This document shows, one piece after another, positions 17,489-23,804 of a DNA stretch of 64,000 nucleotides. Source of the stretch: an uncultured Lentisphaeria bacterium. Lineage in GTDB: Bacteria; Verrucomicrobiota; Lentisphaeria; Victivallales; UBA1829. The notes under the pieces were generated by a model. That model saw only the letters and a list, made by a program, of their open reading frames with translations. It made no database searches and was not told the origin of the DNA. Made by a program: the position numbers and the translations under genes. Within the stretch, counting starts at the first letter, position 1, and the number at the start of each line of letters is the position of its first letter. The stretch is taken from the NCBI GenBank assembly GCA_949282305.1, contig CASDPB010000047.1:1-64000 (forward strand), written 5' to 3'.

Positions 17489-17523
17489 AATCCGGCTTTC
17501 TTATACTCTTTTGAGTTGCTTCC

Positions 17524-17563
17524 AACTCTTAACTCTTAACTCTTAGCTCTTAACTTTTAACTT
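17524..17563. repeat. Heptamer tandem repeat AACTCTT
   Basis: Three exact AACTCTT units at 17524-17544 are followed by AGCTCTT, AACTTTT and a partial unit. The array fills most of the gap between the pheA stop and the ABC ATPase start and touches the pheA stop codon. It is a short tandemly repeated heptamer of the kind known from cyanobacterial intergenic regions. Confidence 0.85.
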
Positions 17564-18632
17564 ACCGTGCCTCGTCTCCGCAGGGATAACTGCCGAGAAC
17601 GCGGAGCGCCTGCGTCTGCGGGCGCAGATACTCGATGGCACGCTTGACCTTCTCATCCTCGATGTGCCCAAGCAGGTCGATGAAGAAGTAATACTCCCAG
17701 TTCTGCACTTTGGACGGACGGCTTTCGATCATCGTGAGCGTAATTCCCTCGTTTTTGAACGGAAGCAGCGCGTCGTAAAGCACACCGACACGATCCTTGA
17801 TCGCAAAGCAGATCGACGTTTTGTCGTTGCCCGTCGGCAGCGGCATCTGATTGCCGAGAACCAGAAAACGGGTCGTGTTGTTCGGGTTGTCCTCGATGTT
17901 CTGGGCAAGGATGTTCAGTCCGTAAATCTCACCGGCGAACGCCCCTGCGATCGCGGCGGAGTCGGGTTCCTGCGCGGCGGTCGCGGCGGCACGGGAGTTG
18001 CTGGAACACTCGTGAACCTCAACATCCGGCAGATATTCGCTGATCCACGCGCGGCACTGGCTGAGGGACTGCACATGGCTGTAAAGTTTCCTGATCGACT
18101 TCATCGGGAACTTCGACAGCAGGGAATGATGCACCCGCAGGTTGATCTCCGCGCAGATTTTCGCATCGGAGTTCACAAAAATGTCAAGGGTATGGGAAAC
18201 CACGCCCTCGGTCGAATTCTCGACGGGAACGCATCCGTAGTCGGCGCGTCCGTTGTGAACGTCCGCGAAGATGTCGTCGATATTGCCTTTCGGGACGTAG
18301 GCGACGCTGTGCCCGAATTTGGAAACCGCCGCCAGATGGGTGAATGTGCCTTCCGGTCCCAGATATGCGATGTTCAGCGGATGTTCGAGGGCAAGCGCGC
18401 CGGACATGATCTCGCGGTAGACCGCCTTCAGAGTCGTCTGGCTCATCGGTCCCTGATTCAGCGCGGCGACTTTCTCAAATACGATTTTTTCCCGTTCCGG
18501 CACATAAAAAACGCCGGAGGAGTTCTTTTTATGCCGTCCGACCTCGATCACGGTCTGATAACGCTCATTGAGAAGTTTTACGATTTCCGCATCAATCGAA
18601 TCGATTTTTTTCCGCAGTTCATCCAGAGCCAT
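17562..18632 (-). CDS. pheA: Chorismate mutase / prephenate dehydratase
   Basis: 356 residues. An AroQ-type chorismate mutase domain (LDELRKKIDSIDAEIVKLLNER ... VGRHK) covers about 1-85. The prephenate dehydratase domain begins YLGPEGTFTHLAA and includes VPVENSTEGVV and the catalytic TTRFLVLG. A C-terminal ACT domain carries ITLTMIESRPSK, the phenylalanine-binding motif. The enzyme makes phenylpyruvate from chorismate, with phenylalanine feedback expected. The ATG at 18630-18632 is preferred over an upstream TTG because AAGGA lies nine bases before it. Confidence 0.95.
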   Translation of the reverse strand: MALDELRKKIDSIDAEIVKLLNERYQTVIEVGRHKKNSSGVFYVPEREKIVFEKVAALNQGPMSQTTLKAVYREIMSGALALEHPLNIAYLGPEGTFTHLAAVSKFGHSVAYVPKGNIDDIFADVHNGRADYGCVPVENSTEGVVSHTLDIFVNSDAKICAEINLRVHHSLLSKFPMKSIRKLYSHVQSLSQCRAWISEYLPDVEVHECSSNSRAAATAAQEPDSAAIAGAFAGEIYGLNILAQNIEDNPNNTTRFLVLGNQMPLPTGNDKTSICFAIKDRVGVLYDALLPFKNEGITLTMIESRPSKVQNWEYYFFIDLLGHIEDEKVKRAIEYLRPQTQALRVLGSYPCGDEAR

Positions 18633-18678
18633 ACGCAAAATCCTTCATTTTAAAATCATCTGTTTCATACAGCTTGTT

Positions 18679-19830: not shown

Positions 19831-21468
19831 ATGGAATTTGTTCCATTCCTCGCAGCCCAGCAGATCGGAGGCGGTGCAATTCTGCTCATCGTCATCATCG
19901 TATTTGTGGCGTTCGCCGTTTTCATCGGAGTCCTCGCCCGGATCAAAAAATGTCCGTCCGACCGGATTATGGTCATTTACGGGTCACAGGTATTTCACAA
20001 GGACAAGACAACGAAACATGCGGCACGCTGCATCCACGGCGGCACCGCTTTCATCTGGCCGGTCGTCCAGGACTACGGTTTTCTCTCCCTGCGCCCGATC
20101 CAGCTTGAGGTGAACCTGCGCAACGCGCTCTGCAAACAGAACATCCGCATCAATGTGCCGTCGGTCTTTACGGTCGGCGTCAGCACGGATGAAACGCTCA
20201 TGGGCAACGCGGCAAACCGTCTGCTGGGACTCCAGCCGGACGCCATCGGAGAACTGGCAAAAGACATCATCTTCGGTCAGCTGCGCCTGGTGATCGCATC
20301 CATGACGATTGAACAGATCAACTCCGACCGCGAAACATTCCTGCGCAGCATCGAACAGAACGTCGCGGAGGAACTCAACAAGATCGGACTCCTGCTCCTG
20401 AACGTCAACATCACCGACATCACCGACGAAAGCGGATACATTGACGCAATTGGAAAACGCGCGGCGTCGGAAGCCATCAACAAGGCGCGTATCGAAGTCG
20501 CGGAAGAAGAGCGCAAGGGCGGAATCGGAGAAGCCGAAGCGCGCAAGGCGCAGCGTATCGCGGTATCCCAGGCGGAAGCCGAAGCACAGGCGGGAGAAGC
20601 CAATGCCGACCGGGAACGCCGCATCGCCGTAACCCAGGCGGAAGCGCAGGCGCAGTCCGGAGAAGCCGACGCCGACAAGCAGCGCCGCATCGCCATCAAG
20701 GAAGCCGAAGCACAGGCGCAGATCGGGGAAGCCAATGCCGACAAGGAACGCCGTATCGCCATCAAACAGGCGGAAGCCCTTGCAATCGAAGGCGAAAACG
20801 TTTCCGCCATCGAGATTGCGAAGTCCAACGCCACAAGGGTGGAAAACGAAGCCGACGCCTACCGTCAGGCGGAAGCCGCAAAACGCATTGCGGAAGCCAA
20901 GATCAAACAGGCGGATTACGAAGCGGAAATGCTTGCCCAGGTCGCACGTGCAAAGATGGAAATGGAAAAGCAGAAAGCGGAAACCCTTGTCCACGCCGAA
21001 ATCGACAAAGAACAGGTTGTCATCCAGGCGGAAGCGGAAGCCGAAAGACGCAGATGCGAAGCCAAGGGCGAAGCCGATGCCATTTATGCGAAACTTGAGG
21101 CAGAAGCCCGCGGCAATTATGAAATCCTCAAAGCGAAAGGGGAAGGATACCAGCAGATCATCGCCTCCTGCAACGGCAACGCCGACGCCGCAGGAAAAAT
21201 GCTCCTCATCGAAAAACTGGAAGAACTTGTCAAGCTCCAGACCGAAGCAATCAAAAACATCAAGATCGACAAAGTCACCGTCTGGGATGGCGGACAGCAG
21301 GTCAACGGCAAGAACTCCACAGCCAATTTCCTCAGCGGCATGGTGCAGAGCATCCCTCCGCTTCATGATGTCGCCGGACTGGCTGGAATCGATCTCCCCG
21401 GTTATCTCGGAAAGATTCAGGAGAGCGGCAGTCAGGAGAAGACGCCCCCCGCTCCGCAGCAGCAGTAA
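19831..21468 (+). CDS. Flotillin (YuaG/FloT-type)
   Basis: 545 residues. One membrane helix (about 16-37) is followed by an SPFH/band-7 domain (about 38-225) and a long Ala/Glu-rich coiled coil. Flotillins scaffold membrane microdomains. The coiled coil contains four copies of a 22-residue unit (GEANADRERRIAVTQAEAQA-like), seen in DNA as a roughly 66-bp tandem repeat at about 20535-20785. That repeat may vary in number between strains. AAGGAG precedes the ATG. The C-terminus is Pro/Gln-rich. Cotranscribed with the NfeD-like partner. Confidence 0.93.
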   Translation: MEFVPFLAAQQIGGGAILLIVIIVFVAFAVFIGVLARIKKCPSDRIMVIYGSQVFHKDKTTKHAARCIHGGTAFIWPVVQDYGFLSLRPIQLEVNLRNALCKQNIRINVPSVFTVGVSTDETLMGNAANRLLGLQPDAIGELAKDIIFGQLRLVIASMTIEQINSDRETFLRSIEQNVAEELNKIGLLLLNVNITDITDESGYIDAIGKRAASEAINKARIEVAEEERKGGIGEAEARKAQRIAVSQAEAEAQAGEANADRERRIAVTQAEAQAQSGEADADKQRRIAIKEAEAQAQIGEANADKERRIAIKQAEALAIEGENVSAIEIAKSNATRVENEADAYRQAEAAKRIAEAKIKQADYEAEMLAQVARAKMEMEKQKAETLVHAEIDKEQVVIQAEAEAERRRCEAKGEADAIYAKLEAEARGNYEILKAKGEGYQQIIASCNGNADAAGKMLLIEKLEELVKLQTEAIKNIKIDKVTVWDGGQQVNGKNSTANFLSGMVQSIPPLHDVAGLAGIDLPGYLGKIQESGSQEKTPPAPQQQ

Positions 21469-21624: not shown

Positions 21625-22650
21625 TCAGAACTTGTAAACCTGCTTGTTTTTGACGGATTCAATCATGCCGAGGGCAATTTCAATGGAGTTGAAACCGTCC
21701 TGAACACCGGGCATTTCGACCTTTTCACCGAGAATGTTGCGGGCGAAGTCAATGATCTCCTGCGTATAGCCGGAAGCGACCTTGACCTCTTCCACACCGA
21801 TCCCCGCATCTGCCGCGTTTTCCACGCCGATCTCCTGTTTTTCCCCGCCAAGCGGACAGTAAGCGACCGTCTCGGCTCCGCTCAGGCTCAGACAGCCTTT
21901 CTCCCCGTAGATTTCCATCAGCTCATTGGAGCGCCCGAATCTCTGCCATGTGCAGAACATATTGCAGATCACACCGTTTTTATAGGTAATGATGCCATCG
22001 ACCATATCGGAAGGGTTTTTCTGAGCCGGATCCAGAAGCATGCCGTCCGCATAAACTCTCTCCGGCTTCCCGAAGAACCAGTTGGCAAGGTCGACATGAT
22101 GCGCAAGCATATCCACAATGACACCGCCGCATTTATCGAAATCCGTAAACCAGTCGCCATATTCCCGGCGATACATCCCCAGGGGGAGATCCACATTGCA
22201 GAAGCGGATTCTGCCGATCAGCCCGGAATCAAGCAGCTCCTTGCATTTTCTGGTCTTCGCCATGGCACGGCGGACAAAACCGATCGCAAAAAACTTTTTG
22301 GACTTTTTGACGAGTTCAAGCATTTCGAGTGAGTTCTTCAGATCGCGGCAGAGCGGTTTCTCGCAGAAGATATGCTTGTCTGCGGTGACTGCGGCACGGA
22401 TTCCCTCCTGATGGCAGTAAGTTGGCGAAGCTATGACAACCGCATCCAGATCCGGAATCCCGGCAAGCTCTTCCGGCCCGGAACAGATGACTGCCCCGTA
22501 TTTTTCGTGCATGTCCTTTGCGGCGGATTCTTTCGGATCGTAAACTGCTGCGACCTGGGCATCAATTCCTGCCAGTGTCTTCAACTGGACGATGTTGCCG
22601 GCATGAACACTTCCAAGCCGGCCGGCTCCGATGATTCCGAACTTCAACAT
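21625..22650 (-). CDS. Gfo/Idh/MocA family dehydrogenase (inositol-dehydrogenase-like)
   Basis: 341 residues. FGIIGAGRLGSVHAGNIV is the NAD-binding motif, CEKPLC is the conserved Lys-Pro motif, and GGVIVDMLAHHVDLANWFFG holds the catalytic Asp/His pair as in inositol 2-dehydrogenases (IolG). The substrate is not certain. The ATG at 22648-22650 follows CGGAG; an earlier in-frame TTG would run into the repeat array and is rejected. The gene has its own terminator and an unusual repeat region upstream. Confidence 0.9.
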   Translation of the reverse strand: MLKFGIIGAGRLGSVHAGNIVQLKTLAGIDAQVAAVYDPKESAAKDMHEKYGAVICSGPEELAGIPDLDAVVIASPTYCHQEGIRAAVTADKHIFCEKPLCRDLKNSLEMLELVKKSKKFFAIGFVRRAMAKTRKCKELLDSGLIGRIRFCNVDLPLGMYRREYGDWFTDFDKCGGVIVDMLAHHVDLANWFFGKPERVYADGMLLDPAQKNPSDMVDGIITYKNGVICNMFCTWQRFGRSNELMEIYGEKGCLSLSGAETVAYCPLGGEKQEIGVENAADAGIGVEEVKVASGYTQEIIDFARNILGEKVEMPGVQDGFNSIEIALGMIESVKNKQVYKF

Positions 22651-22780: not shown

Positions 22781-23290
22781 CGCGAGAGGGCAAGATTGCA
22801 AGATTGCAAGGTTGCGAGATTGCGAGACTTGATTCTGATTGCGAGGTTGCGAGAGGGCGAGAGGCAAGATTGCAAGATTGCAAGATAGCGAGACTTGATT
22901 CAGGTAGCGAGATTGCGAGGCTGCGAGGTTGCGAGATAGTGGCTAGTGTTCAGTGGAAATGTCTACTGTTCTTTCCCAGCTTTTAAGCAGCCATCGCCTA
23001 CTGTCTTGCAACCATTTTTCAGTTGTTAGTGGCTTGGTGTTCAGTGATTAGTGAGTTGTTAGTGTTTAGTGTAAATGTCTACTGTTCCTTTGCCTTGTTT
23101 TTAACCGCCTATAGACCACTCCCCATTAACCATTAGCCACCAACTATCCCTCTTGCAACCTTGTACTCTTGCCCTCTCGCCACTTCGCAATCTTGCCCTC
23201 TCGCTATCTCGCTATCTGAATCAAGTCTCGCTATCTGAATCAAGTCTCGCTACCTCGCTATCTTGCTATCTCGCAATCTCGCAATCTGGA
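22781..23290. repeat. Inverted array of 8-bp repeats around a repeated core
   Basis: The left arm (about 22781-22940) is built from GC(A/G)AG(A/G)T(T/A)-type octamers. The right arm (about 23150-23290) is built from the reverse complement of the same octamers. The longer word GCGAGACTTGATTCAG occurs at 22888-22903, and its complement at 23216-23231 and 23235-23250. The core between the arms contains AAATGTCTACTGTTC twice (about 22957 and 23073) and many AGTG/TTAGTG words. No gene fits this region. The arms could fold into a very long imperfect stem. Confidence 0.85.
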
Positions 23291-23291
23291 A

Positions 23292-23804
23292 TCATTCCAC
23301 CTGTGCGGCGCGAATAATCGTCACGGTTTCGACAGGGACATCATCGTGTCCGGCTCTGGAACAGGTTGCAACTTTTTCTATTTTGTCAACCACATCCATA
23401 CCTTCCACGACATGCCCGAAAACACAGTAACCGAAACCGCGCGGGGAGTTGTCCTGATGATCCAGGAAATCATTGTCAACCGTATTGATGAAGAACTGAC
23501 AGGTGGCACTGTCAATGACACCGGTACGGGCCATGGCAATGGTTCCGCGCTTGTTGGAACCGCCGTTCGCCGCTTCATTCTTAATCGGCGCCTGCGTCGG
23601 CTTCTGTTCCATTTCGGCAGTCAGCCCGCCCCCCTGGATCATGAATCCCGGAATGACTCTATGGAAAATTGTCCTGACATAATGCCCGGATTTCACGTAG
23701 GAAAGAAAATTTTCCACCGTAATGGGCGTATCTTTGGCAAAAAGTTCAAGGGTGATGGAACCGAGGGTTGTCTCGATTACGACTTTAGGAGCGCTTTCAC
23801 TCAT
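23292..23804 (-). CDS. Cyclophilin-type peptidyl-prolyl isomerase
   Basis: 170 residues, a single cyclophilin domain without signal peptide, so cytoplasmic. Marks are [15 protein letters not shown] (catalytic Arg and Phe), [26 protein letters not shown] and [16 protein letters not shown]. It speeds proline isomerisation during protein folding. It is the last gene of the run eda, gnnA-like, ispE, cyclophilin, and its end abuts the inverted repeat array. Confidence 0.93.

Follow-up and report, generated by a model that had tools for sequence, protein, structure and literature searches.

An octamer array mirrored around a core in an uncultured Lentisphaeria bacterium, probably a gene-less copy of an intervening-sequence-like mobile cassette

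The DNA analyzed here (the window: 64,000 nucleotides, positions 1 to 64,000 of contig CASDPB010000047.1 of an uncultured Lentisphaeria bacterium) contains at 22782-23287 a repeat element that is composed of an octamer arm on the plus strand, a core with heptamer words, and an octamer arm on the minus strand. Both neighbor genes are encoded on the minus strand; read in that direction, the cyclophilin stop is followed after 9 nt by an octamer arm, then by the core, the mirrored arm, and the oxidoreductase. The features are:

21625-22650, minus strand: GFO/IDH/MocA oxidoreductase, the downstream neighbor
22782-22936, plus strand: octamer arm of 17 GCRAGRNN units; the 3' arm on the minus strand, the strand of both neighbor genes
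22938-22955, plus strand: heptamer-type words AGTGGCT AGTGTTC AGTG, inner to the octamers (families D4 and D5)
22957-22971, plus strand: core word AAATGTCTACTGTTC, copy 1; resembles, in local alignment, the module beside arrays L032, L041 and L049
23026-23072, plus strand: heptamer-type words of the TTAGTG and TCAGTG types
23073-23087, plus strand: core word AAATGTCTACTGTTC, copy 2
23115-23146, minus strand: heptamer-type words in the opposite orientation, read by eye
23149-23287, minus strand: octamer arm of 12-13 units; the 5' arm on this strand, 9 nt past the cyclophilin TGA
23292-23804, minus strand: cyclophilin-type peptidyl-prolyl isomerase (PF00160), the upstream neighbor, with the same C-terminus as in three congeners

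Octamers of the form GCRAGRNN occur 17 times on the plus strand (22782-22936) and 12 times on the minus strand (23151-23282; 13 units with a looser unit definition); the first unit of the right arm lies 9 nt past the cyclophilin stop codon TGA. The 16-mer GCGAGACTTGATTCAG is common to both arms in opposite orientation, at 22888 on the plus strand and at 23216 and 23235 on the minus strand (0 expected in shuffles), and recurs with one mismatch at 22822 on the plus strand. The core contains the 15-mer AAATGTCTACTGTTC exactly twice, at 22957 and 23073 (0 expected in shuffles); beyond these two duplicated words it carries heptamer words in both orientations, with TTAGTG-type words at approximately 22938-22955 and 23026-23072 and their complement at approximately 23115-23146. 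The arms are complementary, for example over 61 nt at 82% and over 52 nt at 87%, and the predicted RNA fold of the element reaches -220.7 kcal/mol, vs. -149.1 (sd 6.2) for shuffled sequences (z = -11.5); as single-stranded DNA, the fold has a z-score of -10.7 against shuffles. The descriptive claims of the original prediction thereby hold up: the two arms use the same 8-bp units in opposite orientation and share a common word, the core has duplicated words of its own, including TTAGTG types, the array can be folded into a long stem, and its neighbors are a dehydrogenase-type gene and a cyclophilin gene. Searched against Rfam, the element produced nothing above the gathering threshold and one sub-threshold match (E = 0.024).

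Within the host genome (4.36 Mb, 132 contigs), a BLAST search with the window element returned 78 matches, a count that includes overlapping matches and the window's own, and scanning the window plus 20 fetched regions for the repeat unit identified 30 octamer arrays; in the 61 genomes searched at E ≤ 1e-5, the host alone matched, and none of the 60 relatives, three congeners included, yielded a match to the window element. Most octamer arrays of the host are single-armed. Many are located near contig ends, as expected if repeats break the assembly. An assembly artefact, considered from the outset in the form of fold-back reads, is ruled out by the position of the site within a 239-kb contig, by the many other sites with other flanks, and by complete plasmids that have the same architecture. 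A short-hairpin module recurs beside the arrays; its pattern GGAAAGGGC..CCCTTTNACC has eight matches in the genome, of which seven have coordinates next to octamers and the eighth lies between heptamers. In L032, L041, and L049, a diverged form of the module can be aligned with the duplicated word of the window core. Related prophage copies on contig C131 (L033) and at the end of contig C40 (L044) carry about 12 vs. 2-3 octamer units at the same site, a difference which indicates that array length is unstable. Two phage-like contigs have octamer arrays at several gene junctions, one with matches to a transposase and a transposition protein (L036, C127:15500-30500), the other with matches to terminase, portal, head, and tape-measure proteins (L042, C95:1-18000). 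By visual inspection, a sequence containing GTGTCGTCAATAG is common to L031, L035, and L040, where it lies beside arrays at contig ends; it is likely the end of an insertion sequence (IS), and in L040 a transposase-like start comes next. We take these ends to be IS5-like.

The order of variant units is weakly shared between the arms (3/36 at p ≤ 0.05, with 1.8 expected; 15/36 at p ≤ 0.2, binomial p = 0.0025), which weakly suggests that one arm may have been copied from the other. At the window locus and at the loci on contigs C13, C60, and C97, comparison with the three congeners found no clean empty site or target duplication; the synteny of the neighboring genes differs in all three congeners, and insertion boundary and target duplication are therefore unreadable at these four loci. 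Between their genes, the congeners have a dispersed palindromic repeat of another kind (L053, L244, and L245; by eye).

On contig C13 of the same genome (L030), octamer arms are mirrored around a gene that matches the family of the 23S-rRNA-intervening-sequence protein, a four-helix bundle (IVP/S23p, PF05635); since the match falls into two pieces, the gene is frameshifted. The host genome has three IVP genes (four matches), and its three congeners have none. The window core contains no IVP relic; the only match is nine residues long (E = 0.09). The third IVP gene of the host (L115, C23:1-1500) has longer tandem units, each about 30 bp, ahead of it and partly inverted words behind it.

The arrangement on C13 has counterparts in many phyla. 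Among the best 80 of 579 confirmed IVP relatives, all with loci on genome contigs, an initial look found an array on some side of the gene at 62 loci and on both sides at 33. In the refined set of 75 loci with at least 150 nt on each side (five were dropped), arrays of 6-9-bp units adjoin the IVP gene on any side at 59 loci, vs. 14 of 137 control windows from far stretches of the same contigs, and flank it on both sides at 36, vs. one control. These flanks are mirrored: the left flank, when locally aligned to the reverse-complemented right flank, gives a median of 22, compared to 12 for the direct orientation, 11 for the flank of another locus, and 10 for the controls; the inverted alignment exceeds the direct one at 64 loci and falls below it at eight, and it exceeds that with a mismatched locus at 64 and falls below it at nine. 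The insertion of an IVP gene into a pre-existing array is rejected, since splitting an array would leave direct and not inverted flanks. The array periods are 7 (70 arrays), 14 (21), and 12 (one); units of 8 and 9 bp beside IVP genes were found in relatives at L092 and L105. A second set, 30 loci of relatives from both IVP subfamilies of which 28 exceeded the family cut-off, has arrays at 17/28 loci and on both sides at 6/28, vs. 1/29 cyclophilin loci (0/29 under a stricter window). The link between arrays and IVP genes is strong and not universal; at the settings used, 16/75 loci of the first set and 11/28 of the second have no array. The unit sequence varies between genomes, while IVP gene, period, and mirror arrangement remain constant.

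The same architecture is found on plasmids. At a drmD-IVP-methyltransferase junction on Planktothrix agardhii plasmids, each side of the IVP gene is occupied by an array, a short core, and a mirrored array, which indicates that gene-less units like that of the window exist in another phylum; no clean empty site was found at the drmD loci of Planktothrix, Oscillatoria, and Pseudanabaena. Further plasmid loci with arrays beside IVP genes come from Treponema, Bernardetia, Dolichospermum, and Nostoc, and an IVP match also occurs in two phage records. At L095, the C-terminus of the IVP reads through its own heptamer array and yields a repeated peptide.

Many arrays are placed at stop codons. The outer edge of the 5' array lies at a co-directional stop codon at 43 of 52 testable loci of the 80-locus IVP set (edge -35 to +15 nt from the stop of a frame of at least 90 codons), vs. 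61/1137 random places, a soft baseline because random places are mostly intragenic and AT-rich arrays can themselves supply a stop. Octamer arrays of the host start at a co-directional stop codon in 14/30 cases, vs. 308/4200 random places (start -12 to 40 nt from the stop, frames of at least 80 codons). The gene ahead of the array at C13 and at C60 has its stop at the same codon in all three congeners; at these two sites the array thus begins directly behind the native stop. No enrichment of right arrays at start codons was detected (23/48 vs. 492/1137).

Dispersed copies were compared in the relative G015, which has 19 IVP matches; one weak match on contig C141 was left out, and a common cassette aligns with 17 of the remaining 18 loci. 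Seven cassettes have the same 72-nt internal deletion, three have another shared deletion, and flanking stretches show short similarity in only 5/253 pairs; the same internal deletions at dissimilar sites indicate defective copies at many sites, as for non-autonomous elements. Many of these copies adjoin prepilin-like gene starts (by eye), several end at contig edges, and recombination between the repeated prepilin-gene starts could also spread them. In copies including L117, L118, L120, and L214, the right arm runs by visual inspection into a prepilin-like N-terminus; at L117, the frame appears to open at an ATG farther upstream, so that the element would seem to provide a new start (by eye).

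Short repeats in intergenic positions include the STRR heptamers of cyanobacteria, MITEs (also with inverted ends), REP/BIME elements, and CRISPR; to our knowledge, cyanobacterial STRRs have not been described as mirrored pairs, and REP/BIME and CRISPR differ from the window arrays in unit length and layout. CRISPR repeats are identical, about 25-45 bp long, and separated by unique spacers; this class is rejected for the window element, whose 8-bp units stand head to tail. The intervening sequence (IVS) in the rRNA of Coxiella burnetii is a closer match; it is reported to have an S23p gene, a 28-bp inverted terminal stem, excision by RNase III, and three or two tandem heptamers, depending on the strain, before the S23p start, the first of which contains the site of cleavage (PMC4990558). 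The window element shares with it inverted ends that form a long stem; further common points are tandem units in the 5' arm, which in Coxiella are heptamers whose number varies by strain, an IVP gene in related elements, and decay of the ORF while the element persists (PMC4990558). In contrast, the Coxiella IVS is described there as occupying rRNA helix 45 with a single 28-bp stem (PMC4990558), whereas the window element lies not in a 23S rRNA helix but between protein genes, its octamer arms are long, and it lacks an IVP gene. The same source reports S23p of Xanthomonas to be a homopentamer of four-helix bundles (PMC4990558); the PDB relatives of IVP, 2RLD and 2GSC, have five chains each.

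A homology of IVP to Avd, a protein of diversity-generating retroelements, is also described (PMC10053308). A resident enzyme that would spread the element by reverse transcription is rejected here: the host genome has no match to PF00078 (RVT_1), and among 61 genomes an RT domain is present in 19/33 with and 14/28 without IVP (Fisher p = 0.61), with no link between the two.

Geobacter metallireducens offers another precedent in its repeat classes 1-3, octa- and heptanucleotide repeats described in 2009 as putative regulator sites (PMC2700814). They too are dispersed tandem repeats of 7-8 bp, some with IS elements beside them, and classes 1 and 2 form opposite-strand pairs at variable distance, as do the window arms; they differ in having 3-5 units, a reading as regulator binding sites, and other unit sequences, and the text consulted does not mention a link to IVP (PMC2700814). 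The TAACTGA heptamers of marine Beggiatoaceae, Cyanobacteria, and Bacteroidetes are likewise intergenic, with 13 sets overlapping an upstream stop; they are described as almost all direct, with one inverted case, and mostly oriented to downstream starts, in which they differ from the window element (PMC4679880).

The window element is probably a gene-less copy of a small, IVS-like mobile cassette that has inverted arrays of 7-8-bp units, normally one IVP/S23 gene, and a point of entry behind an upstream stop. It has the inverted arrays on both sides and the 5' arm behind a stop; the IVP gene (PF05635) between the arms is absent here and present, in frameshifted form, in the C13 sibling, and the element is therefore termed a gene-less derivative and not a full member. 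This reading draws together the mirrored arms, the IVP link across phyla, the 5' arms at stops, the G015 copies with shared deletions, and the differences in array length. The cassette would enter gene junctions immediately past the stop of the preceding gene, and the window copy would have lost its IVP gene or have arisen without one. The units differ between genomes, and period and mirror symmetry stay, which suggests recognition of a folded strand and not of a fixed end sequence; the arms may be recognized by shape, as a hairpin in RNA or single-stranded DNA, and IVP may help in trans. By analogy with rRNA IVSs, RNase III might cut the hairpin of the transcript, and insertion inside operons would then be tolerable. 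The interpretation offered in the original prediction is partly borne out. Of its three ideas, that of a self-spreading repeat family has the best support, from the approximately 30 arrays in the host with none in 60 relatives, from mirrored arms around a small gene in many phyla, and from dispersed defective copies; nothing supports a boundary element, and to call the organization unlike anything known would be too strong in view of the close precedents in Coxiella and Geobacter metallireducens (PMC4990558; PMC2700814).

Intergenic minisatellites could provide an explanation without any mobile element, growing by slippage from chance seeds and moving by recombination, with the inverted pair as a product of recombination or template switching; the unequal unit numbers at the same site in the prophage copies L033 and L044 and the prevalence of single arms in the host would fit, yet we regard this as unlikely, since neither the mirrored arms that surround one gene family across many phyla nor copies with the same deletion at unrelated sites would be expected from it. 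It is highly improbable that the element is a MITE, the non-autonomous element of a conventional transposase, with the array ends as terminal inverted repeats: arm sequences vary between elements and genomes, unlike the fixed terminal repeats of one transposase, and no target duplication was seen against the three congeners, where synteny differs and an orthologous empty site is lacking. Inverted ends, gene-less and dispersed copies, and the presumably IS5-like ends noted by eye beside arrays in L031, L035, and L040 are what this model would account for. A selected host function, in which a global regulator binds the paired repeats or the repeats serve as an RNase III site between genes of an operon, would be compatible with the position between co-directional genes and with the strong fold of the window element, and has parallels in Geobacter pairs proposed as regulator sites (PMC2700814) and Beggiatoaceae TAACTGA repeats proposed as translational regulators (PMC4679880); it is nonetheless quite improbable for an element that is missing from all three congeners, that belongs to arrays many of which reside in phage-like contigs, and whose unit sequence is free to vary between genomes.

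Several observations also weigh against the gene-less cassette. The window core is without an IVP relic, and its units are octamers, whereas the 80-locus set has almost exclusively period 7; target-site duplications and clean empty sites were not found against the three congeners; variant-unit order is only weakly shared between the arms; the G015 copies often sit at prepilin-gene starts, where recombination could spread them; and the stop-codon baseline of random places is soft, with right arrays not enriched at starts.

We tentatively raise the wider possibility that mobile elements marked by IVP/S23 genes form a pan-bacterial class, with ends set by a 7-8-bp period and mirror symmetry and not by sequence, and with entry tied to co-directional stops. 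The features of the Coxiella IVS and the properties of IVP lead us to propose intergenic IVP cassettes and rRNA IVSs as one class; if this is true, the long-known intervening sequences of rRNA would be its rRNA-resident branch, and many of the anonymous heptamer and octamer arrays between bacterial genes would be solo arms and empty copies. We know of no established role or origin for IVSs and of no established function for the IVP family. If IVP genes are tied to heptamer arrays and to insertion at stop codons, IVSs and the IVP family could be explained together, the origin of IVSs would become open to testing, and some of the unexplained short-repeat DNA in intergenic regions of bacteria would be accounted for. 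The open-licence library searched yielded no report that connects inverted short tandem arrays with IVP or "four helix bundle" genes located outside rRNA; this silence is weak evidence of novelty.

The window contains two further repeats. A heptamer array (AACTCTT) at 17519-17564 overlaps and trails the stop codon (17562-17564) of a minus-strand gene at 17562-18638, and is the second array within the window that abuts a stop codon. A 66-bp tandem repeat of 3.8 copies is located at 20526-20779, inside the coding frame 19831-21468.
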